IMG/VR virus record: IMGVR_UViG_3300044699_000118 | Span: 1 to 22,603 of that record | Source of the DNA: a virus | Length of the DNA: 22,603 nucleotides | Strand: one strand, 5' to 3' | Part shown: positions 129 to 21,184 of the stretch, one piece after another | How positions within the stretch are numbered: the first letter of the stretch is position 1 | How the letters are laid out: every line of letters begins with the position of its first letter | The notes under the pieces: generated by a model | What the model was told of the DNA's origin: nothing | What the model saw: the letters and a program-made list of their open reading frames with translations, nothing else | Database searches by the model: none | Position numbers and translations under genes: made by a program

Positions 129-609
129 CTAATACCCCGTCCCTTTTCCCCATTGCTGATTTGATTCGAGTCGGATTGGCGAATCGCTATGCCATCGGGA
201 TTGCGCTGCGGATGCGGCTTGCATGCGTTTCGCATCGACCTGCTCTCTCGAGAGCTGTGGACTGCATCGAGGTAATCGTGGATCTGGTAGCCGAGCTTGA
301 CCTCGGTCCACAGGCCGGCGGCGGTCATCTCGCCGATGGTCTTCACGCTGGCCCACGACTTCGCCTTGGGACCAGGGGACCAGGCCGTCGGTGAGAGCCC
401 CGCCGAGTAGCAAAGGGCATGGACGTACACCCGGAACGCCTTATCAGAGAGCCTTGCGATCTTGGCGTTGTCGGTGAATCGGTCATCGAGCCTGACCCAC
501 ACCTCATGCCTCCTGGTCCCGGCCGCGGACGGGGCGGTGATCCCTGGGGAGGAGGCGCCGCCGAACCCCGACCGGGGCCACGAAGCACGAGGCGGTATCC
601 AGGGATCAC
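129..609 (-). CDS. replication-initiator-like (replisome organizer) protein, frameshifted
   Basis: The core reads RHEVWVRLDDRFTDNAKIAR, then SDKAFRVYVHALCYSAG, GLWTEVKLGYQIHDYLD and SREQVDAKRM. This is the pattern of small phage proteins usually annotated as replication initiators or replisome organizers with an N-terminal winged-helix fold. The segments lie in different frames. The frame appears to change near 552-556 (C run), near 388-392 (GGG, after CYSAG), near 361-366 (AAGGCG) and near 250-256 (GAGAG repeat), ending in GKGTGY and TAG at 129. The start is uncertain: GTG at 609 overlaps the stop of the preceding gene as GTGA, the coupling used throughout this operon; GTG at 502 is a shorter in-frame choice. 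The gene would act early, loading the replication machinery at the phage origin. The family call is from remembered sequence patterns. Confidence 0.6.
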
Positions 610-1028
610 GGCTGAACCCTACGCCTGCCCGGTGCCGCTGTCCATAGTGAGCCCTGATTCGTCGGCGGCTCGAGCTCGCGCTCTCGACCGCACGCCCTGC
701 ACTCGCGCCGGACGATACGGACGTGGTGCCGCCCCTGGTCGGTCAGCCGACGCCACTCAATCCGACGCTCAAGCAGGTCGCGGCGATCAACGAGCCGATC
801 ACCTACATGCGCCGAGTTCTCGCAGCTTCCTCTCACGCCGATACCCTCCCTCGGTTCCCACGCCGCCAGCTGCGCCTCGGCCTTGGTCAGGGAGGCTAGG
901 GATTGCAACGCCGAGAGCCATTGCTTCTTCGCGTCGACGGCCATACCAGCCGTCCGCTTGAGCCCTTCGGCCAGCCTCGCGGACATCTGCACATCGGCGG
1001 TCTCTAGATCGACCATCGCCTCGATCAC
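606..1028 (-). CDS. hypothetical protein with helical N-terminus and CxxC motif (140 aa)
   Basis: I do not recognise this protein. It starts with GTG at 1028, sharing GTGA with the stop of the gene before it, and the frame is open to 606. Residues 1-60 are rich in A, L, E and K and look helical (for example MSARLAEGLKRTAG). The C-terminal half is Arg-rich and carries CRACG at residues 110-114, half of a possible zinc site; Cys69 is the only other cysteine seen. The uneven composition after residue 60 could mean that one frame change is hidden there, but I cannot place one. Its position between a short helical protein and the replication gene suggests an early, non-structural role. Confidence 0.5.
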   Translation of the reverse strand: MIEAMVDLETADVQMSARLAEGLKRTAGMAVDAKKQWLSALQSLASLTKAEAQLAAWEPREGIGVRGSCENSAHVGDRLVDRRDLLERRIEWRRLTDQGRHHVRIVRRECRACGRERELEPPTNQGSLWTAAPGRRRVQP

Positions 1029-1207
1029 GCGCCGACCGTCGCTTTGGGGTTGTGCTCGCGGTAGGTAAGCGTGGCTCGGGCCATCCCCCGCCGGCGTTCG
1101 TCGTCGCGGATAGCATCTTGCGCGATGGCCTCTCGGTAGACCTCGAAGGCCATATCGACTTCGCGCTTGGCGGAGTAGAGGGCTTGGGTGAGCTCGGCGG
1201 CGTTCAT
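1025..1207 (-). CDS. small helical hypothetical protein (60 aa)
   Basis: The ATG at 1207 overlaps the stop of the preceding helix-turn-helix gene (ATGA), and the protein ends at 1025, overlapping the next GTG. It begins MNAAELTQALYSAKREVDMA and is highly charged, with heptad-like Leu/Ala/Val spacing over residues 1-45, so a single long helix or coiled coil is likely. It has no cysteine, no signal peptide and no membrane segment. I do not recognise a family. The tight overlaps at both ends support it as a translated gene. Confidence 0.6.
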   Translation of the reverse strand: MNAAELTQALYSAKREVDMAFEVYREAIAQDAIRDDERRRGMARATLTYREHNPKATVGA

Positions 1208-1385
1208 GCTCGACTCCGACGAAGGTACTTCTCGAGCTCGGCAATCTCGATGACGACGCGCTTGCCGATACGCGATGCCACTAGGTTTCCAGCTTGATCT
1301 CACTTCGAATCGTCTGAACGTGGACGCCGATCATGTCGGCAGCCTCTTGTGGTCTCACCGCGAGCCGCTCTAGGTCGTCTCTCAC
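1204..1385 (-). CDS. excisionase-like / MerR-type helix-turn-helix DNA-binding protein, one frameshift
   Basis: After one correction this is a 60-residue HTH_17-type protein. It starts with RPQEAADMIGVHVQTIRSEI, the helix-turn-helix, then AGNLVASRIGKRVVIEIAEL and LEKYLRRSRA, the beta-wing and closing helix typical of excisionase and AlpA-like regulators. The first part is in the GTG (1385) frame; after SEI the frame must gain one base near 1293-1295 (AAG for AAGG), otherwise it ends at a TAG within four codons. Corrected length is 183 bases, an exact codon number. GTG overlaps the preceding stop (GTGA) and the TGA overlaps the next ATG (ATGA). It probably binds DNA as an excisionase, an early-gene regulator or a replication accessory factor. 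No integrase is visible here, so the excisionase role is not shown. Confidence 0.75.
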
Positions 1386-2068
1386 GCCGGCCCCAGATCA
1401 GCCGTGGTGCCTTCCATCGCTACCAGCTTCGGCGTGCCGCACTTAGGACAAACCGGCTGCGTCTCAGGGTGGCGATAAACCCATCTCACCCAATGACCGG
1501 CGCTCGTCTTGTGATCGCATTTGCTCGGGTCGATAGGGAAGCCGGGGGAGGGCAGTGAGGGACGATCCCTCCCCTGGCTCCTTACCCGCCGCTTCCCCTT
1601 CGGCGAGTGAGGTGTCCCCGGCGGATGAGGCCTGGGGCTTCCCTACCCCGGGTGGCGCCTGGCGCCAAGAAGTTTGTTCGGCCTCACCCTTGGGACCGCT
1701 CCGCCCCGCTCGGTGGCGGGTTCGTTCACGGCCGGGACGTCTTGGTTACATCTCTTCTCGTGATGGACGCCGACCCTTGCGGCGTAGCCCAGGTTAGCCA
1801 GGGCTCGGCCTATCGCAGAGGTCTCGCAGTTCTCAAGTGCCGACGTGGAGTTGACGCCGCGATCCGTAACCGATTCTTGCGCGAGGCCGGTGGCGACCGG
1901 ATACGGCTCTCCCCGATGCGACCAGACCGACGCCTTCACGATGAAGAAGATGCCGGCCTGCTGCTCGATCAACTCGGTGTCGATCCGGCCATCAGGGAAC
2001 TCGGACCAGAAAGCCCGGAGGCGATCCTCGACCGGCTCGTAAAAAGGATCCTTGAGGAAGTCAGCCAC
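1382..2068 (-). CDS. putative DNA recombination / single-strand annealing-type protein with C-terminal zinc motif, two frameshifts
   Basis: The N-terminal domain reads FPDGRIDTELI, IFFIVKASVW and ATGLAQES, then ENCETSAIGRALANLGYA. The last motif is typical of phage proteins grouped with ERF/Rad52-like annealing or single-strand-binding factors. The middle is a Gly/Glu/Pro linker, and the C-terminus carries CDHKTSAGHW followed by CPKCG, a likely zinc site. The linker is reached after a missing base near 1689-1698 and left after an extra base in the G5 run at 1544-1548; the two changes cancel, giving 228 residues. GTG at 2068 is chosen because GAGGAG lies about 7 bases upstream and the overlap with the previous gene is then only 8 bases; an ATG at 2098 is in frame but overlaps by 38. 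The family is inferred from motif memory. Confidence 0.6.
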
Positions 2069-2315
2069 GCCGGCGCTCCTCGGCTCGGTCTTCCTCATGC
2101 TCGAAGTCGATCCGGCAATCCAGGTGGGCGGTGCGGCCGTTGTAGACCTCTCGGGCTTGTCCCGGCATCACTTGGTGCCCGCAGAACTGGCACGGCGAGC
2201 GTGGGCAATCCGGCGCGTGATGGATGAACCCCAGCGTCAACAGGTCCACGCCACCGCAGGATGGACAGCGGGCTAACGTGTTGCGGCGGAAGCGTTCCAG
2301 GTAACCGGGGCTCAT
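2061..2315 (-). CDS. zinc-ribbon protein (84 aa)
   Basis: The protein is rich in metal-binding residues: CPSC at 17-20, two histidines at 32-33, Cys37, CQFCGH at 42-47 and Cys67. This is enough for two zinc knuckles. The tail (EHEEDRAEERRRG) is highly charged. ATG at 2315 overlaps the preceding stop as ATGA and has AGGTG 8 bases upstream. It belongs to the broad class of small phage zinc proteins often found among early genes; its partner (DNA, RNA or protein) is unknown. The frame is clean from start to stop. Confidence 0.65.
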   Translation of the reverse strand: MSPGYLERFRRNTLARCPSCGGVDLLTLGFIHHAPDCPRSPCQFCGHQVMPGQAREVYNGRTAHLDCRIDFEHEEDRAEERRRG

Positions 2316-3778: not shown

Positions 3779-3785
3779 GCCGGGG

Positions 3786-4232: not shown

Positions 4233-4330
4233 GGTTCCTCCTTCTTTCGAGCCTTGAGCCACAGAGCCACCGCCGAGATGATGACGGCGCCGCTGATGGT
4301 AACGGTGACGGTGATGATGGTGCGGTTCAT
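4229..4330 (-). CDS. very small membrane peptide (33 aa)
   Basis: ATG at 4330 shares TGATG with the stop of the coiled-coil membrane gene. The peptide is MNRTIITVTVTISGAVIISA followed by VALWLKARKKEEP, so one membrane span of about 22 residues and a basic cytoplasmic tail. Its stop overlaps the ATG of the next peptide. Together the two peptides and the holin candidate give three successive short membrane genes. It may be a holin partner; no named family is recognised. Confidence 0.6.
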   Translation of the reverse strand: MNRTIITVTVTISGAVIISAVALWLKARKKEEP

Positions 4331-4848
4331 CAGATCGCGACGCCGGAGGCGAGCCGGATGCCGAACAGGATCAGGCTCAGCATCAGGGCTACCCCGGCGG
4401 TGATGAGGATGTACTTGATCTGCCGCTTCTGCGCCGCGATGGCGTCGGTGTTCGCTTGCCGCAGGCCGTCCAGCGCGGTCTGCTCGACCGACTGGATCTT
4501 GAGGGTCTCGACGTCTTGTTTGAGCCGCTCGAGGCTGTCGTCCAGGCGGGAGGCGAACGGGGCGCCGCCGCTCTCGAGCGTATCGAGCCGCCGGATGATC
4601 TCCTTGTTCGTTCGTTCACGCTGTTCTGGCGTCGGAGACCGCCGACTCGAGGGTCCTCCCGAGCGAACTGTAGGGCTTGCGTCTCGGCGGGCGTGCTTCT
4701 CCGCATGGGAGCCGTGCTCGGCGTCGTGAGCCCGCCTCCGTTCCTGGAGGATGCGCTCGAAGTAGTCCCGCTCGGTGACCCGTCCACCGGAGTGTCGTCG
4801 GTCCTCGCCGGACCGCTCGACGTGTTCGTGTCCGTTCGCGTCGTCCAT
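4330..4848 (-). CDS. coiled-coil protein with C-terminal membrane anchor, three indels
   Basis: The N-terminal half is charged (RVTERDYFERILQERRRAHD) and the C-terminus is one membrane span, YILITAGVALMLSLILFGI. A long coiled coil lies between (LDDSLERLKQDVETLKIQ). The literal middle is a Ser/Pro/Arg-rich stretch that breaks the coil. Removing one base at each of 4683-4689, 4651-4653 and 4621-4627 gives ARETQALQFAREDLESAVSD and then ARQRERTNKEIIRRLDTLES, a continuous helix, and the gene loses exactly one codon (171 residues). ATG overlaps the endolysin stop (TGATG). Membrane-anchored coiled-coil proteins are common next to endolysin genes; holin, spanin-like or endolysin-tethering roles are possible. 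Confidence 0.6.
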   Translation of the reverse strand: MDDANGHEHVERSGEDRRHSGGRVTERDYFERILQERRRAHDAEHGSHAEKHARRDASPTVRSGGPSSRRSPTPEQRERTNKEIIRRLDTLESGGAPFASRLDDSLERLKQDVETLKIQSVEQTALDGLRQANTDAIAAQKRQIKYILITAGVALMLSLILFGIRLASGVAI

Positions 4849-5290
4849 CAGGCGCAGGCCGGTACGCCGGTACGGAGCGGGGAGGCGCTGACGTGGATAT
4901 GAGGTCCGCTGGTTCCGCCGTAGGGGTGCCAGCCCTGGCTCGGCGTCCAGATACGCCGACCGTCGTGGTCGATCACTTCTGCGACCTCCAATCTGCGGAG
5001 TCGGTTGGCCTTGGTCTTGTGCTTCGCCTGGTTAGGACCACGGCATCGGCGATGTGACGGAGCTCGTCCTGGACGTAGGTCGGAGAGGGGTGCGGGATGG
5101 GGAACAGGTCCAGGGCGTTCCCCCAGGAGTGCTGGCTCCAGGAGTTCGAGCCCGAGATGTTCTTGCAGACGAAGCATCCGGCGTAGGCGATGATGCGTGT
5201 GGACCCCGAGCCCACCTTTGCCCGACCCATCACCGTCGCGACCCTGCTACAGGGTGCCGTCTGTACGCTGGTGCTGTTGACCGGAAACAT
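4848..5290 (-). CDS. endolysin, M15-type (VanY-like) zinc peptidase, one frameshift
   Basis: After one correction the protein is 147 residues. SQHSWGNALD at residues 52-61 matches the SxHxxGxxxD zinc motif of M15 peptidases (His54 and Asp61), and GPHIHVS at 129-135 gives the C-terminal His pair. Four cysteines or near-cysteines (14, 39, 42, 146) may form disulfides. The frame changes after IADAVV, where one C is missing near 5031-5038; the second half then reads NQAKHKTKANRLRRLEVAEV through IWTPSQGWHPYGG. Without the correction the last metal ligand is lost. It should cut a peptide bond in host peptidoglycan at lysis. The ATG at 5290 shares one base with the protease stop (TGATG), and lysis genes follow. 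Confidence 0.75.
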
Positions 5291-6013
5291 CAGAACGCCC
5301 CCTCGGCGAATGTCCAGTTGTCCCACATGTTGAGCCGGCGGAAGTTCTCGACCGTCAGCCGCGCCGTACCGCTCTGCCCCCACCCCTCGCCCCAGCTGTT
5401 CTGGACCCGGAGGAACGGGGGAGCCCCGTCGTCGGGAGCCAGGTCGATCCCGGTCAGGGCGACGCAGTGATAGCCGGCGAGGTCGCCGTCCATGTTGACC
5501 TTGATCCAGTAGTTGCCGTATGCGGTCTGCAGCGCCTTGTCGCCGTTGCCGCTGTTGCCGCTGAACATCGACATGTACCAGGGGACGGCGATCATGACCG
5601 GTCCGAAGGTGAGCAGCGCCGTGATCACGTCCTCGACCTGGAGCACCTTCCAGTAGGACGTGATAAGGCCGTCGGTCAGGAGCTGGGCGCAGGCATCCCT
5701 CGGGAACATCCCTTCCTTGTAGGTGGCGTCCCCCGATGCCTCGAGGTAGAGCTGACGGGCGAACTGATGGGCCAGCTCCTCGGTCTGGAACTCCGCGTAG
5801 GTCGGATGCGCCGAGGGGCCGGCCAGCAGGACGTTCGTAGCGGCGTGGCCCACGCATGTCCCCTCGCTGCCCTGGTTGATTGCGGAAGTCCTTGTTCACC
5901 ATCGTGTAGAACTTCCGGTCGATCTCGACGGCCGCGAGTGCCCTAGGGCGTAGGTCGAACAGATAGTCCCGCGGGTCGGGTCGGTCGGGCTTGGCGCCGA
6001 GCGCGTACTCCAT
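5290..6013 (-). CDS. papain-like (C1A) cysteine protease, one frameshift
   Basis: All four C1A landmarks are present after one correction: Gln47 and Cys53 in NQGSEGTCVGHA, His182 in GYHCVALTG and Asn205 in VQNSWGEGWGQSG. The N-terminus, YALGAKPDRPDPRDYLF, is the 'PDPRDY' leader seen in phage-borne C1A proteins. One extra base at 5880-5881 separates the leader from the catalytic Cys; without it the enzyme is split. Corrected length is 240 residues. ATG at 6013 is chosen for GGGAGGT 3-4 bases upstream; an in-frame ATG at 6025 overlaps the previous stop. No signal peptide or membrane span is visible. It lies after the fibre genes and before the endolysin, so it may be virion-associated or act at lysis. 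The substrate is unknown. Confidence 0.8.
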
Positions 6014-6024
6014 CGGACCTCCCA

Positions 6025-6919
6025 TCAGATGACCCGGCGGGCGCTCAGCTTGGAGCCCAGCCGGACGATCTCCGGGTTCCCGGCGTCCGTGATGAACTGG
6101 GCGTGGCGGTACTGCACCGTCCCCGGCGTGGCTCCGTTCGTGACGGTCCCCTCGACGAGCAGCGGCCCGTCGACCGTGGCGTTGACGCCGTGGACCGCCT
6201 GGGTCGTGATCGACGCGAGGGGATGGGTGCTCAGGGCATCCCACGCCCCGATGTCCATCCACTGACCGATCGCACCGGTGGGGACGCTGAAGACATGCTT
6301 GAAGTCCCCCGCCGAGCTGATCCGGACGTCGAGAGCCATCGAGAAGACCCATTGCTCGTTCGCGCCGATCGACCAGAAGAAGTGGTCGTCGTTCTGCAGC
6401 GTGTTGTTCGCCACGCTCTCGTCCGACGGCTTGACGATGTCCACCGAGACGGTCTGGATGCCGGAGGACAACAGCACGCGCTTGTCGACGATCTCGGCGG
6501 CGGCGATGGTCGTGGTGTTGGCCGGGACGTCCACCGCCGCTAGCGCGATGTTGGATGACGGCAGGGTGGGAAGAGACCGGGACCACGGTCGGGTCGGAGG
6601 GGACCACCGCGACCGGGGTGCCGGCGATCGCCGAAAGGGTCCCGGAGAAGTTCGACACGATCAGGTCCCTACGGGGGCTGGACGACGCCGCAGTGATGGT
6701 GACGTCGCCCGCCGATACCGAGACGGCGCTCGTGCCGACGGACAGGATCCCCGCCGCGACGTGGACGGTCATGTTCGGCGAGCCCTGCGGGGTCACCAGG
6801 CAGCCCGAGGTTACGCCGTTGCCACCTATCCCCGCGGTGAGTGCGTCGATGTCGGCCTGGTTCGGGAAGGCTTGGTCGTCGTGCGATGCTGCGCCGAGGT
6901 TCGGGATCGTGAAAGGCAT
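6025..6919 (-). CDS. baseplate / receptor-binding fibre protein, one frameshift
   Basis: The protein opens with ADIDALTAGIGGNGVTSGC and a short beta-rich domain (TVHVAAGILSVGTSAVSVSA) typical of phage baseplate-attached fibres. One extra base near 6574 separates this from LPSSNIALAAVDVPANTTTI, after which a second domain follows with HFFWSIGANEQWVFSMAL and ends TVQYRHAQFITDAG and GSKLSARRVI. The C-terminal domain resembles terminal domains of actinophage minor tail proteins. Corrected length is 297 residues. ATG at 6919 abuts the upstream stop and has GAGGAG 4 bases before it. It probably sits at the tail tip and touches the host surface. Confidence 0.65.
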
Positions 6920-8533
6920 CTAGCTCCTCTGCTTGAATGAGACGGCGTCGAAGGCGATCATCGCATCGGGGTTGGTGGTCGGCGACCACCTGAACACGAT
7001 CTCGGCCTTCGCGGCGCCGGTGGGGGCGACCCCGGTCGCGGTGAGCCGCTGCCATACGCCGAACGGGGGGTTGAAGATGTTGGCACCGCTGACCTCGTCG
7101 ACGAAGTTGCCGTTGATGTCGTTCCAGTAGATGAACAGCTGACACTGGACCGCCGACTGGCTCTCGAAGTACCCGACCGCCTCGTAGGTCTCCCCCGGCG
7201 TGACCGCGGGGCGCTCGGTGGACTGGAGACGGAACTTCGAGTAGACGGCCGAGTCTTGGATCACCACGATCGACCATTCCCCGATGTATCCGACGTGCTG
7301 CCGACCGTAGAACGTAACGGCACCGTCGGTGTAGAACCAGGCTGCGTCGTCGGTCTCCATCGAGGAGGCGTTGGCCGACAGCAGGTTGAGCCGGTGCACG
7401 TTCGCCAGCGGGGTCGCTAGGTCCCAGTCCACCCGCCATTCGAACTCGCTGTTGACCGTCCCCGTGATGCCTTGGACCGCGAGCTCCTGCTCGAGCATCG
7501 CGCCGTAGGGCGGACGGTGGCGGGCGATGACCCGCTCCAGGAGTTCGGTCCCCAGCGCCGACGCCCAGTTCGTGTTCCTGGTCCCCAACCCCAGGTGTCC
7601 GATCCTCCTCCGAGGCTGGGAGTAGCCGGACAGGACGGACTCGGCGAGGTCCTGCATGTCCAACCCGTTCGCCAGGATCGTCGAGATCGACAGGTCGGTA
7701 CGGCCGAACTCCCCCATCGAGTCGATGTCGGTGACCTCGATGTCCACCTCCCCGGGAGAGGAGACGGTGACGGCGTTGAAGATCTCCTTGTCGTCGTCGT
7801 CGATGGAGATGTCGAGGTAACGCCGTTCGCTCGAGATGTCCCCGTAGGCGATCGGGTCCGGGGCCGGGGCGTAGGTCACGTCCCGGAAGACCGCGGAGCC
7901 GTCGGCGCCGAGGAAGAACGCGCCGCCCTCGGACTCGGCGACCAAGAGCATGTAGTCGAACCGTCCCGAGGTCCCGACCGAAGCCTGGACGAGGCGCGTC
8001 CCGGCGTCTACGTCCCGACCCGCCTGCCAGGTCGGGGTGGTCGCATCCAGGACCTTATTCACCCGGCTTCCCGTCAGCTCATCGCCGGTGCCGTATCCCC
8101 CGTCGTAGAGCGGTCCCGGTTCAGACGCTTGGAGTCATCGACGAACGACCATGTCACGGTCGAGTCGGCCTTGGTCTGAGAGAAGGCCATCGGCCCGCCC
8201 TCTGTTCTGCCGGTGAAGATCGGCAGCGTCAGGCTCCCGCCGCCCATCGCTCCCGACAGCGGTCCAGAACCCAGTCCGGTCCGGCCCATCCTCCAGGGAT
8301 TGATGCCGGTGTCCACCCGAGCCAGGAACCGAGCTCGTCGGTTGGGGCGGATCTCCGGGTGCAGGTCGCGGTCGAACCTACCCGTGCGGTTGTCGAACAC
8401 CGCCTGCGCCGTCCCGGCTCCCATCCGGTCCCGCTCCCTCGCCCTGCCGCGGTGCCAGGTGAAGTTCCGCAGGTAGGCCCACGACGCTCTCGTAACCCTG
8501 CCCCAGGTCGATCTCGGCGATGAGCGCCGGCAT
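6920..8533 (-). CDS. distal tail / minor tail protein, two cancelling frameshifts
   Basis: The pattern is that of the phage minor tail family that begins with a short strand, then 'RGRxRExDRxxAGTAxxxxDNRxGRFD': here RNFTWHRGRARERDR and GAGTAQAVFDNRTGRFDRDL. A middle domain has LTGSRVNKVLDATT and the C-terminal domain is a carbohydrate-binding-like beta sandwich (residues about 350-535). One extra C near 8476-8480 and one missing C near 8110-8116 cancel, giving 537 residues. ATG at 8533 has GGAGG only 2 bases upstream, and the same frame runs back into the repeat protein without a stop, so it may be translated as one chain with that protein. It should form part of the tail tip. Confidence 0.65.
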
Positions 8534-10960: not shown

Positions 10961-10969
10961 GGCCCCTCC

Positions 10970-12218
10970 TTAGACGGTCTGGATCGCGCCGCTCGCGGTG
11001 GTCCCCGAGTCGTCGGTGGGTCGCCAGGACCGCATCGCGCCGGTGTTCCCGGCGGTGACCTCCAGGCGCGGGTCCGGGCCGGTGTACTGCCCGAACCGCA
11101 CCCCGGCGGCGTCGGGTCCGCACCGGACCGTCGGGATCGAGCCGGAGGAGGTCTGGGTCGCGTTGAAGAACACCTCGGTGCCGTTGACGTACACCCCGCC
11201 CAGGCCGGTCGTCGCCGCCGAGAGCTCGAACTTGCAGTGGGTGAACCCGACCCCCAGACGGTACGGGGAGCTCGCGCCTGTCCCGTGCTCCAGCACCACC
11301 GACCATCGGTTCGCCTGCCCCGACCCGGCGAAGTGGCAATCGACGAACTGGAACGAGGCCGAGTCGCCGCCGGTCGCGCTGCGCTTCTCGAGGCGGACCC
11401 GCTCCTCACCGTCGGAGTAGAACGCGCAGCCGACGAAGTTGCCGTTGTTGCCCGAGGTCAACGCCGCCCCCCGGTAGCAACGCCGGAAGATGCAGCCGAA
11501 GAAGTACATCCAGTCGGCGAACGCTGCCGGGGTCTCGGCACGCAGACCCGCCGGTCCGGCGTCGAACGACGCGCCGGTGGGGGCACCGATCCCGAAGCCG
11601 TCGAAGCGGACGTTCATCATGACCATCTCTTGCGCGTTGTCCAGCCAGATGCCCGAGAGCCCCCGGCCTAGGACGGTCCCACCGAAGTCCCCCCCGGTGC
11701 CGTCGGTGATCGCGAAGTTCTGACACCAGCCGTCGGCGCCGGTCCAGTGGAACATATGGATACCGGCCGTCCCGCACTTGATCCGGGTCGCAGTCCTACC
11801 CGCTCCGACCAGGGCGACGCCGCGCTTGGAGATGTTGACCTGGGAGTTGATGATGTGCGTCCCCCTCCGAGACGTAGATCGTCCCGCCGTTGGTAGGAAG
11901 GGCGGTGTGGGCGGCGGCGATCGTGGCCTTCGCGGTGTTCGGGGAGGCGCCGTCGTTCGCATCCGACCCCCCGGCGGCGCGGACGAACTGCCAGCCCATC
12001 GCCGTGTTGAATCCGGGGGAACCCCCGGCCCCTCCGGGGGAGGCCCATGTCCCGTCGGCGCGGAGGAAGTTCGCCGTCCCTCCGGGGAACCCGACGTGTC
12101 CGGTGAGGATGTCCTGTCCCTCGTTGTAGCCGAGGGGGTTGTTCAGCCATGCGTGAAGGAGGTTGTGGTCGGTGACGTGTCCGGTCTCGCCGGCGGTCCT
12201 TTGAGGTAGGTCGGCCAT
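10970..12218 (-). CDS. tail fibre with right-handed beta-helix (pectate-lyase-like) domain, one frameshift
   Basis: The N-terminal part reads GHVTDHNLLHAWLNNPLGY and FLRADGTWASPGG, the linker common in phage fibres. After a G5 run at 11861-11865 with one base too many, the second frame continues THIINSQVNISKRGVALVGAG. A long series of short strands follows (GIWLDNAQEMVMMNVRFDGF, FVGCAFYSDGEERV, FQFVDCHFAG), as in beta-helix depolymerases and fibres. Corrected length is 415 residues. ATG at 12218 has AGGAGG 4 bases upstream. Many phage beta-helix fibres bind or cleave surface polysaccharide. I cannot see a definite catalytic site, so binding only is possible. Confidence 0.7.
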
Positions 12219-12226
12219 CGAGCCTC

Positions 12227-12337: not shown

Positions 12338-12744
12338 AAGGTGGCGATCCCCGAAGATGACCAGACCACCGTAACGTTGGCGCCGTTCGGCGTGATCGGC
12401 AGGCCAGAGGCCGTGTCCCAGTACAGCAGCAGGTTCGAGGTCGACTCGACAGCGGTGTCCCGGAACAGGATCATCGACTCGGACTGGTCCCCGGTCAGGG
12501 AGGAGAACACCGTATCGGCGGCGTCGAAGACCCCCGCGGTGAAGGTCTTGGTGCCGAGCGTCGGACAGGAGGCGATCGCCGGGACCCTCGCGGCGGAAGC
12601 GATGTCGTTGATGAAGTCGTCCGTCGCTACCACGGGGGTGTCGTCGGCGTGGTCGACGAACATCGCCTTGATCGTGCCGGCGCTGATGTCCGGCCCCGCC
12701 GTCCAGACCAGGTTCCGGTACGCCGTGAAGCCTGCGTTAGCCAT
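12334..12744 (-). CDS. small phage structural protein (136 aa)
   Basis: The protein belongs, by its pattern, to a widespread phage group that sits next to fibre genes: SAGTIKAMFVDHADDTPVVA, then FINDIASAARVPA, GVFDAADTVFSSLTGD and SGLPITPNGANVTVVW. It is beta-rich with no cysteine pair or membrane segment. ATG at 12744 has GGGAG 5 bases upstream and overlaps the CxxC gene's stop by 8 bases. It is probably a small fibre-associated or tail-tip component. The name rests on resemblance; I know no solved function for the group. Confidence 0.6.
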   Translation of the reverse strand: MANAGFTAYRNLVWTAGPDISAGTIKAMFVDHADDTPVVATDDFINDIASAARVPAIASCPTLGTKTFTAGVFDAADTVFSSLTGDQSESMILFRDTAVESTSNLLLYWDTASGLPITPNGANVTVVWSSSGIATF

Positions 12745-13063
12745 GCGTTCTCCCTTCTCGGGCCACCACGAGCGGGCGGCGTAACTGCGTTCCTTGTCCG
12801 GGGACCTCGAGCCGTTGGGGCTCGGGTTGGGGGATCTCCTTGGTGGCCTGGAGGCCGTCGAGTCCGGCTTCTTTGAGGCGTTCGTAGACCGTCTCCGAGA
12901 CGACCACGTCCCCGACCTGGTCTAGGCCGAGGTGGTAGGTCTTGAGGTCGTGGACCCCTTGGCAGAGCCAGCAGAACATCGGCTGGGTCAGGGGACGGCC
13001 GAAGTGGATCAGGGTGTAGGTGCAGTTCCTAAGTTCGGGGTGGTGGAGGCGGACGCCGCTCAC
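12737..13063 (-). CDS. CxxC protein following the tape measure (108 aa)
   Basis: GTG at 13063 shares GTGA with the tape-measure stop. The protein reads LHHPELRNCTYTLIHFGRPL, then QPMFCWLCQGVHDLKTYHLG and a Val-rich segment DVVVSETVYERLKEAGLDG. CWLC with nearby Cys14 and His residues may bind a metal. This arrangement, a small CxxC protein directly after the tape measure, recurs in actinophages. The C-terminal 30 residues are Pro/Gln/Arg-rich and probably disordered. It may help tail assembly or be a minor virion protein. Confidence 0.55.
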   Translation of the reverse strand: MSGVRLHHPELRNCTYTLIHFGRPLTQPMFCWLCQGVHDLKTYHLGLDQVGDVVVSETVYERLKEAGLDGLQATKEIPQPEPQRLEVPGQGTQLRRPLVVAREGRTHG

Positions 13064-14517
13064 GTTCGGACGGCACCGTTAAAAATGGCCCCACTCCGCT
13101 CGAGACGCTTAGTCATGATCCGGTCCAGGGCTCCAGAGACCTTCTCGCCATCGAGGAAAACCTCCACCTGTACACCCCCGCCGAAGCCCATCTCATTGTT
13201 GACGCCGGAGAACGCCTCACCCTTGTGGATCACCGCCAACCCTGTACGGGCAACGACGCCGCCAGTAGCAGCACCAGGGACGAACCCTGGTGGGAGCAGG
13301 CCGCCGACCTGACCTCCGAGCTGCTCCCCCACACCATGACCGAGCTGCCCGAGCCAGTCGATCGCGCTCTTGATCCACCCGATGAGCGTCTCGATCTTGC
13401 CGATGACGACCTCGATGAACCCGGCGACGGCGTGCCATGCCGTAGCGGCGGCGTCCCTGACCACGTCCCAGATGGGACGCACCTTGTCCATGACGAAACT
13501 GACGATGCGGGCGAGGAAGTTGACCACCGGCTCCACGACCTTGTCCCTGATGAACCCAACGAAGTCCAGGAACTTGTCGATGACGAATCCGACCGCCGTC
13601 ACCACAAGAGCGAACTGCGCCAGGATCATCGTGGCAAACAGGACCACCGCCGCGCCGATGATGATGAGCAGCGGCTTGATCCGGTTCAGCGCCGGGAGGA
13701 TGCGGTCCTGGATGGTATGCCACGCCGTTAGGAGCAAGGGAACCAGGACGTCACCGATAGCCGATGCGAACGGCTTGACGGCGTCCCACGCCTTCCCGAC
13801 GCCTTCGGTGAATGCGGCCCACGCCGCCGGGATCCTGTCCTGGAGTATCCCGAGCAGTTGATTCAGCTGACCGAGCAGGAACTCGAACGCCGGCGCCAGC
13901 ACCGACCCAACGGCTTCGGCGAGGTTCTCGAACGACACCGCAGCCTTTCCGGTCGCGGTGGCTTGCGCCTCTGCCGATCCCTTGAACTGCGAGGTGACCT
14001 CGGCGAGGATGATCTTCTGAGCACCCATCAGGTTGTTGTGCTTGACCAGTTGAGCGATCTGCTTCTGCTGCTCCTCGGTGAACTGCACGCCGACACGGGT
14101 CAGCGAGGACATACCCGCTATAGGGTCGTTCAGGGCCTTGCCGAGTTGGATGGTCGCCGACTTTAGGTTGATCTGGCTCCCCGAGGCGGCGGCGTATCCG
14201 GCCGCCAGGTCCAGGGCCGCGGTGGATGCTTGGGTGAAGATGTCGTTCTGTGCGCCGGCCTCGTTACGGATGTTCTTGAACGTCAGGAGCATGTTCTCGC
14301 CGGCCTGGATGACCTCATCGTCCACCCCGGCCTTGACCGAGAGCGCATCCGCGAGCTCGGCGACCTGTCCGGCGGTGACATGTGCCGCGCCACCGGTCGA
14401 CTTGATCACGGCGCCGGTCTGCTGGAGGACGTTCTCGGATTCCTCGAACTTCCCGAAAGCGAAAGCGGCCCCCGCGGCGAGCGCCGTGAAGGCCGTGGCG
14501 GCTGCCGCCAGTCCCAC
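13060..14517 (-). CDS. tape measure protein
   Basis: A long Ala/Gly-rich helical protein with a hydrophobic block near residues 282-315 (LLIIIGAAVVLFATMILAQF) and a Gly-rich C-terminal part (GLLPPGFVPGAATGGVVAR), as in siphovirus tape measures. It follows the tail tube and assembly chaperone, the conserved order. From GTG at 14517 it has 485 residues; at roughly 0.15 nm per residue this predicts a tail near 70-75 nm. In-frame sequence upstream (IPTISTLSVDVVANTSRLR) looks like the true N-terminus and runs back to a TGA at 14578. There GGAGG is placed about 6 bases before an ATC codon (14574), not an ATG. The real start may be masked by an error there. Confidence 0.8.
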   Translation of the reverse strand: MGLAAAATAFTALAAGAAFAFGKFEESENVLQQTGAVIKSTGGAAHVTAGQVAELADALSVKAGVDDEVIQAGENMLLTFKNIRNEAGAQNDIFTQASTAALDLAAGYAAASGSQINLKSATIQLGKALNDPIAGMSSLTRVGVQFTEEQQKQIAQLVKHNNLMGAQKIILAEVTSQFKGSAEAQATATGKAAVSFENLAEAVGSVLAPAFEFLLGQLNQLLGILQDRIPAAWAAFTEGVGKAWDAVKPFASAIGDVLVPLLLTAWHTIQDRILPALNRIKPLLIIIGAAVVLFATMILAQFALVVTAVGFVIDKFLDFVGFIRDKVVEPVVNFLARIVSFVMDKVRPIWDVVRDAAATAWHAVAGFIEVVIGKIETLIGWIKSAIDWLGQLGHGVGEQLGGQVGGLLPPGFVPGAATGGVVARTGLAVIHKGEAFSGVNNEMGFGGGVQVEVFLDGEKVSGALDRIMTKRLERSGAIFNGAVRT

Positions 14518-14546
14518 ACGCAGCCTGGAGGTATTGGCGACGACGT

Positions 14547-15227
14547 CTACCGAGAGGGTGCTGATTGTCGGGATGGCTCACCTCCACTCGCCCAGGCTTG
14601 CAGCATCATCTCGAGTTCCTCGGCGCTCTGTTGCTTGGACTTGGGCCGCAACCACGGCGGCAGGAAGTCCTCCGGCTTGCGGCGGTTCTTGTTACTGAGC
14701 AGCGCGACGAGGTAGTAGGACAGCGATGCGAACCCCACGTCGATCCGCTCATGGACGAGCAGGGGACCGTGGATCTGTTCGTACGCGATCCAGTCCGTCA
14801 GCTCGGCAGCAGAGAGGGTTTCGAGTTCTGCGACGGTTCGCCCGAGAGCGAGGGCAACCCGGAAGAGGGCTGTTCGTCTCGGGCTTGCTCGAAAGTCGCC
14901 ATCGCCGCCTCGAGCTCCTTGGAGGTGAGCCCGTTGAGCTTCGCGGCTTCGCTGAACAACCGGAGCACCAGAGGGAAGTCCTCCTGCGCGAGTGCGTCGG
15001 CGTCGTCCCTCTCCGAACAGCCGGGTCCCAGTCTCATCGACGAGGCAATGCAGGAGGACCTGCACCGGCATATCGAGCGGCTTGACATCTTCGGACAGCG
15101 CCGCTTGATCGGCCACCGTCATCACACGGAGATACACGTCCCCGCCCCACTCCGGCACCGAGACCTTGACCGGCTTGCGGTCATCCCGGTGCCGTGCGGC
15201 GAGGATCTGCTCCCTGGTCAGGCTCAC
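14547..15227 (-). CDS. tail assembly chaperone (G/GT-like), two frame changes
   Basis: GTG at 15227 overlaps the tail-tube stop (GTGA). The first part reads VKVSVPEWGGDVYLRVMTVA, then VQVLLHCLVDETGTRL. After a frame change near 15008-15020 it continues SERDDADALAQEDFPLVLRL and AAKLNGLTSKELEAAM, typical of lambda G-type chaperones. After a second change near 14867-14869 it reads LFRVALALGRTVAELETLSA and ELTDWIAYEQIHGP, a T-like domain, and ends at 14547 within the tape-measure leader. A programmed -1 shift between G and T parts is the usual rule, but I see no XXXYYYZ heptamer in the right register, and the first break has no such precedent. The protein coats the tape measure before the tube forms. 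Confidence 0.65.
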   Translation of the reverse strand: MSLTREQILAARHRDDRKPVKVSVPEWGGDVYLRVMTVADQAALSEDVKPLDMPVQVLLHCLVDETGTRLFGEGRRRRTRAGGLPSGAPVVQRSREAQRAHLQGARGGDGDFRASPRRTALFRVALALGRTVAELETLSAAELTDWIAYEQIHGPLLVHERIDVGFASLSYYLVALLSNKNRRKPEDFLPPWLRPKSKQQSAEELEMMLQAWASGGEPSRQSAPSR

Positions 15228-15658
15228 GACGGGGTCACCGTTGAGACACCAGGTGTGACGATCTTGAGCGTGATGTGTGCTTCCATCGCGCCGTCGTCGG
15301 TGGCCTCGATCTCCCACTGGCTCGTGATCGCCGGGAAGCGATACGCCGAGGACCAGTTCGGGTGCTGGAGTTCGTAGTACCGGATAGCCACGGCGACCGA
15401 GTCGTAGTCAGCCTTCATGTTCGTGTGCGTGGTAACGGTCGGATCCCACATGACGGTCAGCGTGACCTCCGAACCTTCCTGACGTCCGGGGAGGAAGTCG
15501 GCCCACAGATCTCCATGCGCCGAGACGTCGATGAGGGCACGGTTGGAACCGACCGCCGTCACCGTGCCGATCTGCGTGACGGTGTTGTAGGTACCTGTTG
15601 CCACGCCGGTCGCCGCGTTCTGCTTGAGGAATCCGAGGAAGCCTGCTTGCTTGGTCAT
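15224..15658 (-). CDS. major tail tube protein
   Basis: 144 residues, beta-rich, with TGTYNTVTQIGTVTAVGSNR, FLPGRQEGSEVTLTVMWDPT and a C-terminal strand set TDDGAMEAHITLKIVTPG. The pattern is that of siphovirus tail tube subunits, which stack as hexamers around the tape measure. ATG at 15658 has GGAGG 4 bases upstream, fitting high expression. It precedes the assembly chaperone and tape measure, the normal order. The frame is intact. Confidence 0.7.
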   Translation of the reverse strand: MTKQAGFLGFLKQNAATGVATGTYNTVTQIGTVTAVGSNRALIDVSAHGDLWADFLPGRQEGSEVTLTVMWDPTVTTHTNMKADYDSVAVAIRYYELQHPNWSSAYRFPAITSQWEIEATDDGAMEAHITLKIVTPGVSTVTPS

Positions 15659-16394: not shown

Positions 16395-16519
16395 CCGGCC
16401 TTCTTCGCTTTCGGTTTCGGCTTGGGTTCCGGCTCGGGTTCGGGTTCGTCCGTGTCCTCGTCCACGACGAACGTCTCCTCATCGCCGTGGTACTCGAAGT
16501 GCCCAATCTTGTCCGTCAT
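16391..16519 (-). CDS. small acidic/Pro-Lys protein (42 aa)
   Basis: ATG at 16519 and the stop at 16391 both make ATGA overlaps with neighbours. The protein starts MTDKIGHFEYHGDEETFVVD and ends in a Glu-Pro then Lys-Pro tract (EPEPEPKPKPKAKKAG). Such tails are common in small connector-module proteins of actinophages. It is disordered by composition. I do not recognise a function; the exact coupling at both ends supports translation. Confidence 0.6.
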   Translation of the reverse strand: MTDKIGHFEYHGDEETFVVDEDTDEPEPEPEPKPKPKAKKAG

Positions 16520-17069
16520 CTGACAGGCCCCCTCATAAACGGCTTGAGCGTTTCCTTGTTGTCCTGGGTCAGGAACAGCGTGGTAGGAAACCCGACCGTC
16601 TCGACCGGGAACCCTCCTTGAGACAACGCCTGTCCCGATTCGTCGGCGGTGTAGGCGCGCTTGACCATCTCGACGCAGACGGACTGGATCGCCTTGAACG
16701 CCTCGGAAGTTTCGGCGTGACCGTGGGCATAGGTGACGGTGGCTCCCTGTGTCCACGCCGAGCCAGGTGAGGCCACCGTCCCGGACCTGAGTCCTCGAGG
16801 GACGATGTAGTAGTCAGTCGTCGCCACGCCGTTCACCAGCACCGAAGTGACCGCCGTCACCGGACGCTCAGGCAGGCTGAGGAACGACGACGCCGTGGGA
16901 TACACCGTGATGACGTCCCCCGTGACCGGAGAGAGCGTCTGGTTGCAGTAGGCCCGGATCACCGCCGACGCACCTTCGTAGCCAACGCCTGGAGGCGTGA
17001 GAGGTCGCTCGGGATAGTCATCCCGGAGAACTCGCATACCTCCGTAGCGGTGGCGAACGGTCCGGCCAT
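16516..17069 (-). CDS. head-tail connector / adaptor protein, one frameshift
   Basis: The true start is ATG at 17069, 6 bases after the preceding stop: it reads AGPFATATEVCEFSGMTIPS and DLSRLQALA. A base is missing at 16979-16982; the next frame continues YEGASAVIRAYCNQTL, LPERPVTAVTSVLVNG and EAFKAIQSVCVEMVKRAY. 'ASAVIRAYC' is the standard entry helix of gp6-like connectors and adaptors. Corrected length is 184 residues. A literal reading starting at 17106 would replace the first 30 residues with nonsense and overlap the upstream gene. The protein probably forms the ring below the portal. Confidence 0.7.
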
Positions 17070-17075
17070 CCGGGG

Positions 17076-17390
17076 TTACGTGCCCGCCGACGTCAACTGG
17101 AGCCACGTCGTAGTTCCGGAGACGACGGTGCTCCCGACCCCCGGAGCGGTCGGTGTCCCTGCGGCGGACGTGCCGGCGACGGTGCAGACGTAGACGATCC
17201 GAGTGGCGGGGATGTCCACAAGGTCACCCAGCGTGTTCGCAACCGCACCGGGCCAGTCGATCGCCTTCAGTGCACGGCCGAGATAGTCGGTCGTTGACGT
17301 GGTCAGGCGTCCAGAGAAGTCGGTCGCCGTCGTGCCAGGGTTCAGCACCCTGCGAAGCAGATGATCTCTGCGGAATACGGTGGTTGCCAT
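17076..17390 (-). CDS. small head-module protein (104 aa)
   Basis: It begins MATTVFRRDHLLRRVLNPGT followed by TDFSGRLTTSTTDYLGRALK and a short beta-rich C-terminus (RIVYVCTVAGTSAAGTPTAP). The 'RRDxLLRRxxNPGxxATDxxGR' start is familiar from unassigned head-to-tail module proteins of actinophages. ATG at 17390 has AGGGGAGGG just upstream and forms TGATG with the stop expected for the LEM gene. In the literal sequence it is fused in frame to that gene through RGGL; I treat the fusion as an indel artefact. Its role is unknown. Confidence 0.6.
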   Translation of the reverse strand: MATTVFRRDHLLRRVLNPGTTATDFSGRLTTSTTDYLGRALKAIDWPGAVANTLGDLVDIPATRIVYVCTVAGTSAAGTPTAPGVGSTVVSGTTTWLQLTSAGT

Positions 17391-17708
17391 CAGCCCTCCC
17401 CTGAGGGTTGCGATCAGGTCATCCTTGGTTCCCGAAGTCGGAAGACCCTTGCTCTCGGCGAGCGCCTTGAGTTGGGCCACGGTCCGGTCCTCGTACTTGC
17501 CGGTACCGGTGTCGACCTCCTCGATCTCGACAGGTGCTTGTTCTGCGGGGACGTCCTTGAGCTTCGCCTTGATCGCTTTCACAAGGTCTTCGTTACCGGC
17601 GCCTTCCCACATGGCGAGGTCGCGCTCGAGTTGCAGCCGCAGCGCGCCGCCTCCTCCGGGTTCGGGTCCGGGGTCGGATCGGCCTTGACTGCTGAGCTCT
17701 TCCGCCAT
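17390..17708 (-). CDS. LEM/SAP-like domain protein of the head module (about 105 aa), probable one-base error at its end
   Basis: The N-terminus is Gly/Ser/Glu-rich and acidic; the C-terminal 35 residues read TVAQLKALAESKGLPTSGTK and DDLIATLRG, a helix-extended-helix (HeH/LEM or SAP-like) fold used for nucleic-acid or protein contact. ATG at 17708 has AGGAG about 8 bases upstream. As written, the frame runs on into the next gene. Removing one G from the GGGG at about 17396-17400 gives REG followed by TGA that overlaps the next ATG. It lies just after the capsid gene, a usual place for such proteins. Confidence 0.6.
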
Positions 17709-17738
17709 GCTTCGTTCTCCTCTCGGTTCGGGGGGGAC

Positions 17739-17766: not shown

Positions 17767-17786
17767 CTGCACTGTTGTCCCCGGCC

Positions 17787-19025
17787 TTACGTTGCGGTCA
17801 GCTCGATGATGCCGTTGTCCACGATGCGGATCGCCGTGAAGTATCCGGCGTACGCCACCTGGACACCGAGCACCGACGGCTCTGTCACCTGGAGCGTTCC
17901 CACCCGCTGCTCGTAGACCTCCGCAGCAGCGGTCGAGAGCAGGAAGGCCTTGTTGGTGCCCAGCCCTGCGCTCATGTACGTCGGGACGCCGGCGACCGTG
18001 CCGACGAGTCCCTGGTTGAAGTCACCAGCGGACAGGCCGTCTCCGGTCTGCGAGACGTTCACGATCGGCACGAACAGCGGACCGAACACCGGGAGCCGTC
18101 CGGGCGACAGCGCCAGCACGACCTTGCCCACCCCGGCGGTCGCCGTGTAGACCGTGGCCGCCGCCGACCAGATGGCGGTCCGGATCGTCGCCGCGGTCGG
18201 GGAAGCACCGTAGCCGACGTTCGTCGAGGTGGAGGCGTCGAGGACCGTACCCAGCGCCGCCTCCGTCTGTACGGCGTAGCGAGCGGCGAGGTCGTTGACG
18301 ATCGCGTCCATGATCTGCGGCGCCGAGAAGTCGATGTCCTGCCGCGAGACGTTGACGTAGCCGCCGTACGTGACCGCGGTGGCGGTCAGGCGGGTGATCG
18401 TCATCTTCTGCGACACGAGCTCGGCCTTCTCATCTGCCGCCGCGCCGGCCGACCCCTGTACCGCCACGGACGTTCCCTGGGTCACCAGGGGACGGAACCA
18501 CGACTGGGACGGCATGTCCTTGACTCCGAGCAGACTGGTGAGCGGTCGCGCCGAGTCGATGAAGTTGATCACCGGACCCAGGATCGGGTTCGGGATGAGT
18601 CCGGCGTTGTCCGACGTCTTCTGGTGGGCTGCGGCGCGGTTGAAGATCTCCAGCCGCTCCTGGGCCTGCCGGTCGTTCATCGCCGCCTTGTACTGGTCGA
18701 GCACGTACGCACCGGCCGACCGATACTCGATCGCGCCGTTGTCGACCTCGTGCCGCATCTTCGCGAACTGGTCCTGGATGTCGGCGGCACGCTGACGGGC
18801 CTGTCGCGAACGGTCCGACGCCGCCTGCAGGGTCTCGGCCTGCTCCTCGGCGACCTCGATCCGCTTGCGTGCCTCCGTGATCAGCTCCTGCTCGGAGGCG
18901 GTGAGGTCGCGCTCGGCGTCCTGCGCATTGGCGACCGTGCCCTGGATGAACGAGTCGCGCTCGGCGATCTCTCGCTGGAGCCGACCGATCATCGCATCGG
19001 TCTTCGTGTTCTCTTCCGGGGGCAT
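17787..19025 (-). CDS. major capsid protein, HK97 fold with N-terminal coiled-coil scaffold domain
   Basis: Residues 10-95 are a heptad-rich helix (EEQAETLQAASDRSRQARQR), the delta/scaffold domain that the prohead protease removes. The shell domain follows from about residue 140 (NAGLIPNPILGPVINFIDSA), with WFRPLVTQGTSVAVQGSA, RQDIDFSAPQIMDAIVNDL and VAYAGYFTAIRIVDNGIIEL, as in the Phage_capsid family. The 412 residues fit a fused scaffold plus shell. ATG at 19025 has GGAGG about 19 bases upstream and a closer GTAGGG. It follows the protease, the standard order. No frame change is needed. Known family architecture plus clear matching layout. Confidence 0.85.
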   Translation of the reverse strand: MPPEENTKTDAMIGRLQREIAERDSFIQGTVANAQDAERDLTASEQELITEARKRIEVAEEQAETLQAASDRSRQARQRAADIQDQFAKMRHEVDNGAIEYRSAGAYVLDQYKAAMNDRQAQERLEIFNRAAAHQKTSDNAGLIPNPILGPVINFIDSARPLTSLLGVKDMPSQSWFRPLVTQGTSVAVQGSAGAAADEKAELVSQKMTITRLTATAVTYGGYVNVSRQDIDFSAPQIMDAIVNDLAARYAVQTEAALGTVLDASTSTNVGYGASPTAATIRTAIWSAAATVYTATAGVGKVVLALSPGRLPVFGPLFVPIVNVSQTGDGLSAGDFNQGLVGTVAGVPTYMSAGLGTNKAFLLSTAAAEVYEQRVGTLQVTEPSVLGVQVAYAGYFTAIRIVDNGIIELTAT

Positions 19026-19165
19026 CCCTACTTACTATTACTTACCTCCCTACGGTTCGGGCGCGTACGCCCATCGGATAGGACGCAGCCCTCTCGGCCA
19101 ACGAGCACCCGCTACGACCCGCCTCCGTCTGCGAGGCGACCTCTCTGGGGGGGTCGGTAGTGCCT
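19026..19165 (-). other. 140-base non-coding leader before the capsid gene
   Basis: This is the largest gap inside the structural operon. On the minus strand it holds GGGCGTACGCGCCC (about 19058-19071), a small perfect hairpin, several other short inverted pieces, and GGAGG in an A/T-richer stretch near the capsid start. I see no convincing -35/-10 pair. It could be an extra promoter region, a stabilising 5' leader for capsid mRNA after processing, or plain spacing. Confidence 0.4.
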
Positions 19166-19916
19166 CTAACGTCGGCGTGATTCCATCCACGCGACGACTT
19201 CATCGAGCCGTGGTGTCTCGAGCTTCGGCAGGTCTGCGGCTTGGGGCCGCTCCCGCCGTACGTCGATGACCTGGGCTCCCTCGTACGCTCCGTTATCGGG
19301 GAACGCGAGGTGATCCACGAACGCTCGCCGGATGCGGCGCCGTTGCTCCGTCCGGTCGAGTACCTGGTCCGAACCTTTCACGCCGAACCCGACGGACACC
19401 CCGAGGATCCCTTCGTCGGCCAGCGACAGCGTCTCATCCCCCAGCGGCGTCTTGGCGATCTTGACCTGCCCCACCAGCCCCTCGGGGCGCTCCGGGGAGA
19501 AGCTGAGGACGCGACCTATCAGGCCCGAGGTGCTGGTGCCCTTCAGGTGCGCTCCGGCGGCGTGGTCGCGGAACGCCTTCACGCGGTTCGGACGCTTCTC
19601 GATGCCGTCGAAGGCTCCGCGCTCGAACGATTCTTTCCACAGCTCGCCGCGGTACTCGACGAGCGCCTCCTGGTCGTACGGCACCGCGAGGACCTCGATC
19701 ACCCCGCTGGGGGAAGTCCACCCCCTCGACGGAGGCGGCTCGGGATTCGATCGGCGCCTTGATGTCGGGGGCACGGTTCTCGTTCTCCGTGTTCGCGTAC
19801 AGCGCCGCCACGTGGCGCTTTGCCATCTCCTCGGTCGGATGACACTTCTCGGTCGAGCCGTCGGCGTCCTTGATGACGCAGTATTCGTCGTCACGCTTCT
19901 CGATGTGCCAAGGCAC
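19166..19916 (-). CDS. prohead protease (HK97 U35/S78-type), one frameshift
   Basis: The N-terminal 45 residues (PWHIEKRDDEYCVIKDADGS, then KCHPTEEMAKRHVAALYAN) are a small domain often seen before phage prohead proteases. The protease follows: AVPYDQEALVEYRGELWKES, KAFRDHAAGAHLKGTS with candidate catalytic His118, and ILGVSVGFGVK with candidate Ser174. A C5 run (G5 on the plus strand, 19709-19713) has one base too many after VDFP; corrected length is 249 residues. GTG at 19916 shares one base with the portal stop. The enzyme should cut the scaffold domain from the capsid protein next to it. The break falls between two domains, but nothing suggests programmed shifting. Confidence 0.8.
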
Positions 19917-21184
19917 TATTCCTCGCCTCCTGTGATCGCCGTGATGGGCGCGGTCGGGGAGTCTGTACCGTCCTCACCCAGGAGCCGCTCGGCACGCTGG
20001 ACCGTCTCGGTGTCCACGAGTCCGGCGGCGTGGAGCTCGACCCATGCGTGTGCCCGTTCGGCGAATGGCGGTCGGCTGTATTCGTCTCGGTTCAGTTCGG
20101 CCTTCTGGCCGGCGGGGAGCGCCCAGTAGGAGATCGCCGACATGACGTGGCCGGCGAGCGCCCTGAGCGTCTGACGGTCGTGGAAGTCGAACAGGCTCGA
20201 GACGTTCGAGTAGGTCATCGAGTCCCCCCCGGATGGCAGACCGACCAGGAACGGCGGCACGCCGAGCAACACCGCGATGCGGGATTCGTTGAACTGCGCC
20301 AGCTCGAGCATCGTCAGGTCCTTCGGCGAGACCGCGGTGTGATCGGTCAACTTGGCCCCGCCGTCGAACACCGGGGGTGCCGACGGCGTCTGGACCCGGC
20401 TGGCGAGGTATTGGGAGATCAGGTCCTGCGCCTCGTCCTCGGTCAGGCTCTTCTCGACGTCGATGGTCTGAGATACGACCCCGCCGGTAGCCACGACCTC
20501 CCGCGTGTACTTCGCCAACAGTCCGGCGGTGAGCATCCGCCCCCCCGCCGCCTCGAGCGGACCCACTCCTCGAGGGCTGTCGGTCGTGGACTTGTAGCGG
20601 ATGTGCAGGATGCTCTCGGTCACGTCCGGGCCGGTCTCCCCACCGAACCGATAGCGGCGGACGCCGCCGACCATCTCGACGTAGAACGCCCACCCCGGCA
20701 TCACCCGGAACCGCATCGGGAAGCCGTCGGAGAACGACGACATCTCCATCAGGAAGACCTCGCCGAGCTGGAAGTCCCAGAACAGTTGCTTGGCGAACTC
20801 CTCCCACGAGGAATAGGATCGACGGATCGGGGTTGACCATCCACGACGAGGGCGAGATGACCTTCCCGTCCCGCGTGCGGAGACGGGGAACGTCGACAAC
20901 GCCGAAGCGTTCTTGTCCAGGCACGCCCACGCCACGTCGAGGAGTTCGTTATACCGGGAGTTCATGTCCCAGTTCGGCGTGGACCAGGTGCTCGGCCACC
21001 CCGCCCAGGGCGACGGATAGAACGACGGCAGGGACCGCGGTTCGATCTCGGCGCCAACGATCTCCACACCGTGCGGGTCGCCGTCCGCTTCACCCGCGCC
21101 CACGGTCGACGGGGTCGACGGCGGGTTCGCGTTCGGCTTCTCGCCGGCGTAGTTCACCTCGGTCAGCCAGTTCCACAGACCCAA
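19916..21184 (-). CDS. portal protein (HK97 family), two cancelling frameshifts
   Basis: The protein matches HK97-type portals: WACLDKNASALSTFPV, FAKQLFWDFQLGEVFLMEM, ILHIRYKSTTDSPRGVGPLE and ESRIAVLLGVPPFLVGLPSG, which is the portal hallmark near the C-terminal stem. The literal residues between STFPV and SSWEEF are Arg/Ser-rich and wrong; adding one base near 20881 and removing one near 20816 restores RTRDGKVISPSSWMVNPDPS. The length stays at 422 residues. TTG at 21184 is the start, with AGGGGGG about 6 bases upstream. It should form the 12-subunit ring at the head vertex, joining terminase and connectors. Confidence 0.85.
   Translation of the reverse strand: MGLWNWLTEVNYAGEKPNANPPSTPSTVGAGEADGDPHGVEIVGAEIEPRSLPSFYPSPWAGWPSTWSTPNWDMNSRYNELLDVAWACLDKNASALSTFPVSARGTGRSSRPRRGWSTPIRRSYSSWEEFAKQLFWDFQLGEVFLMEMSSFSDGFPMRFRVMPGWAFYVEMVGGVRRYRFGGETGPDVTESILHIRYKSTTDSPRGVGPLEAAGGRMLTAGLLAKYTREVVATGGVVSQTIDVEKSLTEDEAQDLISQYLASRVQTPSAPPVFDGGAKLTDHTAVSPKDLTMLELAQFNESRIAVLLGVPPFLVGLPSGGDSMTYSNVSSLFDFHDRQTLRALAGHVMSAISYWALPAGQKAELNRDEYSRPPFAERAHAWVELHAAGLVDTETVQRAERLLGEDGTDSPTAPITAITGGEE

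Follow-up and report, generated by a model that had tools for sequence, protein, structure and literature searches.

Frequent small frame breaks in the genes of an uncultured siphovirus record are best explained as residual sequence error

Many genes in the viral DNA analysed here are interrupted by small frame changes, and these breaks are very probably residual sequencing or assembly errors in the record rather than a biological feature of the virus. The DNA is IMG/VR record IMGVR_UViG_3300044699_000118, and the window is this whole stretch of 22,603 bases. It is a fragment of an uncultured actinophage-like siphovirus. Its recognised genes all lie on the minus strand, to which every gene below belongs, and they follow the siphovirus order: terminase, portal, prohead protease, capsid, head-tail connectors, tail tube, tail assembly chaperone, tape measure, fibre and distal tail, peptidase, endolysin-like gene, holin and replication genes. 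An earlier note, made from the letters alone, had reported about 29 frame breaks in at least 15 genes. The breaks are real in substance, but only 22 are supported; they affect 13 genes and one gene junction, and the figure of 15 was not reached. On comparison with related phages, the real molecule would be expected to lack these breaks.

To locate the breaks, the reading frames of relatives were aligned to the window by three-frame dynamic programming in which each frame change carries a cost. Support was counted in contig groups, in which near-identical contigs are pooled, and required a single open frame spanning the site at an identity of at least 40%. Ten of the 22 breaks are supported by at least two independent relatives, eight by one relative, and four at low identity. 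The frame breaks predicted in the earlier note were confirmed in substance by this frameshift-tolerant protein comparison. Two other approaches were set aside. A segmentation into coding frames by codon usage gave a first outline only, was unclear at the left end, and was not used for the counts. A plain tblastn screen was swamped by shadow frames, and the frameshift-tolerant alignment was used instead. L040, which is another cut of the contig of relative L013, was dropped from the alignment listing, and weak unbroken rows and part of L056-L099 entered the filtered counts. Several candidate sites were not counted: one at about 1560 in the phrog_11717 gene (three of eight contig groups), one at about 4856, where the coiled-coil gene starts and the alignment is poor, one at about 12220, which falls between two window genes, and the intergenic clusters at 19055, 17785 and 17760. 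Relatives below 40% identity place changes elsewhere in the portal gene (L015, L024), in the prohead protease gene (L015, L026) and, with several distal-tail genes, at places between 8648 and 8078. The regions at 0.6-1.4 kb and 2.2-3.9 kb have mostly weak, short matches only.

The density of breaks in the window far exceeds that in its relatives. With the same procedure, the window yielded 17 break clusters over 16,590 covered nt, and 30 related contigs together yielded 12 over 216,117 nt. This amounts to 1.02 clusters per kb in the window (0.84 without three intergenic clusters) and 0.056 per kb in the controls, about one eighteenth of the window's rate. If the clusters are assumed to be independent, the binomial probability of the difference is about 7e-13; with the three intergenic clusters removed it is 4e-10, for 14 clusters against 12 in controls that were not trimmed likewise. 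The highest control reached at most 0.33 per kb and at most two clusters. The control targets were 30 of the 45 loci L002-L046, with query frames at an identity of at least 55%; duplicates, fragments and poor matches were left out, and two near-duplicate pairs (L003/L004 and L013/L034) were kept. None of the 12 control clusters falls at a counted break. Eight of them correspond to window positions at the edge of a gene or between genes, at about 21177, 19115, 19030, 17713 (twice) and 16025 (three times), and four are without a usable counterpart in the window.

The broken genes interleave with intact ones, and the broken core genes are still under strong purifying selection. In pairwise comparison with a close relative, the ratio of nonsynonymous to synonymous substitution (dN/dS) is 0.037 for the connector, 0.036 for the chaperone, 0.093 for the SAP-domain gene, 0.094 for the protease and 0.126 for the portal. 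Compared in the same way, the intact genes give 0.032 for the tail tube, 0.065 for Neck1, 0.090 for the tape measure, 0.153 for the capsid and 0.173 for the terminase. Over the 148 codons of the connector that lie past its break, nonsynonymous difference (pN) is 0.006 and synonymous difference (pS) 0.196. Across 11 broken genes, no in-frame stop was found in 3,741 compared codons, a result that is slightly favoured because the aligner penalises stops. About 2.7% of random substitutions would make a stop here. If decay were to add some ten substitutions with each indel, about five stops would be expected. Decay fits poorly because purifying selection is strong and in-frame stops are absent. The open frames of the relatives, the retained selection and a break rate some 18 times that of related contigs uphold the preference of the earlier note for sequencing error over decay.

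Most of the best-supported breaks are found in genes for the head, the connector and the tail. The portal gene (19916..21184; phrog_12, E 4e-27) has breaks at about 20881 and 20818, each supported by five of five contig groups. Five relatives place the loss of frame at 20881-20880 and its recovery within 20825-20816. The two breaks compensate each other, so that the frame stays open but carries about 20 wrong residues. The prohead protease gene (19166..19916; Peptidase_S78, phrog_80) has one break at about 19705 (5/5 contig groups), with the frame change placed at 19706-19703 by five relatives. The head-tail adaptor, or connector (16516..17072; phrog_442, E 2e-21), is broken once at about 16978, by comparison with all 16 contig groups. 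The first frame of the tail assembly chaperone (14801..15227) has an error-like break at about 15010, supported by 13 of 13. In the long distal-tail gene (6920..10969), breaks at about 8478 and 8105 jointly restore the frame, and each is supported by two of two contig groups (L013 and L004, at an identity of at least 40%). The end of this gene (6920-8062, minus strand) matches a PHROG annotated as a phosphodiesterase. A papain-like C1 peptidase gene (5290..6010; PF00112 at cut-off, phrog_16701), which directly precedes the endolysin-like gene, is broken at about 5883 (3/3). Near the left end, the phrog_11717 gene (1385..2149) has a break at about 1780 that is supported by 81 of 82 contig groups.

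The SAP-domain head gene (17394..17720) has compensating breaks at about 17692 and 17641 and a further break at its end, at about 17402. The last was judged by nucleotide alignment with seven relatives. Six of these are informative (five contig groups) and all are without the window's change; the seventh has diverged too far. At this point the relatives have a stop/start overlap in common, and the window has lost it. Its loss fuses the SAP-domain gene and the next head gene in one chimeric open frame of 210 residues (17076..17708). This is an instance of the chimeric proteins that the earlier note had foreseen. The SAP domain, usually a DNA-binding motif, is here encoded by a small head-region gene between the capsid and connector genes.

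Fewer or more distant relatives speak to the remaining breaks. Two genes are broken by comparison with L013 only, with one of one contig group each: the fibre-like gene (10970..12218), at about 11866, and a tail-region gene (6025..6919), at about 6576. In L013, at 11716-13368, the counterpart of the fibre gene and of a small gene at 12744-12334 in the window forms one stop-to-stop frame of 551 residues; in the window the same two genes stand apart, with about 114 nt between them. The coiled-coil gene (4330..4854) has breaks at about 4691, 4660, 4624 and 4610, each by comparison with one of one contig group (L029/L036, at 83% identity). This gene had been described as broken at three sites; the breakage stands, and four sites were found against that one contig group. 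The endolysin-like gene (4850..5280) has a frame change somewhere in 5035-4977, placed there by all four aligned relatives (L021, L024, L026, L030) at 40-47% identity. The replication-initiator-like gene (2..502; phrog_2447, E 3e-12) has probable breaks at about 400, 371 and 265, seen against seven, four and five of ten low-identity relatives, respectively. All eight genes that the earlier note had named are broken where it placed the breaks, the endolysin only at low identity. The chaperone, fibre, distal-tail and endolysin genes are named by position and alignment, without a family match.

Other genes of the same core are intact against relatives of at least 45% identity, and the terminase, capsid and tail tube had been correctly singled out as free of breaks. 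The terminase large subunit gene (21186..22571; phrog_9, E 2e-48) shows no break against such relatives, and the major capsid gene (17787..19025; phrog_2263, E 5e-59) shows none internally. The major tail, or tube, protein gene (15224..15658; phrog_158) is intact, and its counterpart in L012 is 100% identical over 144 residues. The tape measure gene (13060..14577; phrog_27166) is likewise without a break at that identity, being intact against L012 and L013 over 505 residues. Two frame changes in it appear against L037 alone, at 42% identity.

A frame change at about 14.9 kb is separate from the break at about 15010, and it is probably a genuine -1 programmed frameshift in the tail assembly chaperone (14880..14910), judging by the overlapping second frame of the relatives. 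In the relatives, the first chaperone frame ends at about 14801-14861 in window terms, and an overlapping second frame begins at about 14.9 kb. Among the 13 relatives examined, seven had a second frame listed. It lies at -1 in six of these, and the frame of the seventh is not chaperone-like. Three of the 13 (L008, L031 and L035) have a slippery heptamer no more than about 65 nt from the frame end, and none of the nearest relatives has one. A programmed -1 frameshift of this kind is known from the siphovirus tail assembly chaperone of lambda, G/GT. The two overlapping frames of the window at about 14.9 kb fit that model, but it explains only this single conserved frame change and not one of the 22 breaks. 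A frameshift-aware screen could miscount 14880-14910 as an error.

The breaks themselves are mostly gains of a base. Of the 18 with a clear kind, 11 have a net gain of one base, five a net loss of one, and two are either +2 or -1. Published work describes PacBio subreads as enriched in insertion errors and Nanopore reads as enriched in insertion-deletion errors (PMC6487183). The excess of gained bases in the window leans weakly towards a PacBio-like pattern. The indel rate of the window, about 85-100 per 100 kb, is within the range published for long-read-only phage assemblies. One report gives an average of 474 per 100 kb for such assemblies (PMC6487183), and another gives 25-519 per 100 kb for PacBio, 37-130 for Nanopore and 15 for Illumina (PMC10926689). 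As in the long-read-only viral assemblies of these two reports, mostly one-base indels split conserved phage genes, and gene calls would be shortened by them. Unlike typical homopolymer-driven error, the breaks of the window are only slightly enriched in base runs and spare the longest ones.

The run-length argument for error is weak. A run of at least three of any base lies within 4 nt of 11 of the 19 tested positions, where 6.9 would be expected (P about 0.045). The longest run averages 2.95, compared with 2.51 (P about 0.03), or 2.84 (P 0.08) with one site placed 8 nt off. The claim of the earlier note that most breaks lie in C or G runs of 2-5 therefore describes a placement only slightly above expectation for a sequence of 66% GC. 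In its run spectrum the window resembles related contigs, with somewhat more runs of 4, 5 and 7. Strong concentration of errors in long homopolymers is typical of Nanopore or 454 data, and no such concentration was found at the 19 positions. Homopolymer-driven error is not supported, since runs are only slightly enriched and the longest ones are free of breaks. Breaks at short runs with long runs spared are odd for an error of that type; the intragenic runs of 6-7 G or C that carry no counted break are at 7065-7070, 9000-9005, 11689-11695, 20224-20230, 20540-20546 and 21958-21964.

Residual error of the record would explain the pattern best. The virus would be an actinophage-like siphovirus with intact, selected genes, whose record was left with about one residual indel per kb, possibly from unpolished long reads or from very low coverage. 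Each false base would shift the frame of a normal gene. Errors that come in pairs would cancel out in three genes (portal, SAP-domain and distal-tail), and two genes would be fused by a single error at their junction.

Several observations weigh against this explanation. The molecule has not been seen in unbroken form: a one-pattern scan for near-identical contigs across a portal site gave no matches. Eight breaks depend on a single relative. The least sure of these are the paired sites at 17692 and 17641 in the SAP-domain gene, which were seen against one of three and one of four contig groups, in both cases L006. About 16 residues of this stretch are missing from L005 and L014, L037 aligns here in a non-coding frame, and clusters of L003 and L004 lie about 20 nt from the site at 17692, at 17713. 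The counts use the open frames of relatives, and a relative that shared a break would go uncounted; this bias towards unbroken relatives leaves the control run on 30 related contigs as the sole check on shared breaks. All 19 tested positions are more than 4 nt away from any of the window's 15 G or C runs of 6-7 nt. Finally, five genes have a dN/dS of 0.32-0.55, namely the fibre gene, the distal-tail gene, the gene at 6.9-6.0 kb, the C1 peptidase gene and the gene at 1.8 kb; past the break in the fibre gene the ratio reaches 0.73. The proteins of these five were compared at 52-78% identity, and tail parts that contact the host usually change fast.

The raised ratios in these five tail and left-end genes would also suit a decaying prophage or defective phage remnant that accumulates real indels, as would the many structural genes broken together. 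Integrated relatives may exist, as a 55% identical capsid gene lies in a contig of a Dermatophilaceae metagenome-assembled genome (MAG). Pseudogenised prophage remnants likewise have several structural genes broken. Unlike them, the window has no in-frame stops in its compared codons, although about 2.7% of random substitutions would create one, its core is under strong selection (dN/dS 0.036-0.126 in broken core genes, with the low pN against pS of the connector past its break), and intact genes stand beside broken ones. Decay is thus very unlikely. A recent burst of indel mutation without substitutions is equally improbable. In this scenario a mutator host, a damaged template or a dead-end hypermutated genome would have produced real indels too young to leave a trace of substitution, and selection and relatives would be uninformative about them. 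However, some 20 indels without matching nonsense changes would call for an indel-specific mutator, and the assembly would have to be dominated by the affected molecule; no sign of either was found. It is more improbable still that programmed frameshifting lets translation pass through the frame changes. The tail assembly chaperone offers one probable case nearby, but relatives carry the broken genes as single frames, and the sequence around the breaks varies from site to site. A changed genetic code or spliced genes can be considered just as remote. Standard translation follows the relatives within segments, the fault lies in frame and not in stops, and the shifts are of one or two bases; no support for either idea was found. 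Residual error in the record remains by far the most probable source of the breaks.

The nearest relatives found are uncultured contigs, and kinship is mosaic along the window. The capsid and portal are nearest to L002-L006, the terminase to L037, the connector to L014, and the stretch from the tube through the tape measure to L012/L013; the replication end matches distant contigs only. Mycobacterium phage MooMoo has a capsid 56% identical to the window's, and a search of genome contigs with the capsid gave one distant match, the Dermatophilaceae MAG contig, at 55% identity. An actinobacterial host is likely because of this capsid likeness. A tRNA search and an Rfam search of the window at the gathering threshold were empty, and the endolysin fragment, searched against phage records, gave no match.

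This record should be used with caution. It would give wrong numbers of genes, wrong protein lengths and wrong protein families, with fused and truncated proteins among them, and the wrong stretches in the portal and distal-tail genes would escape a length check. If the breaks were true, they would indicate an unusual mutation process in this virus; an ordinary artefact of the record is most likely.

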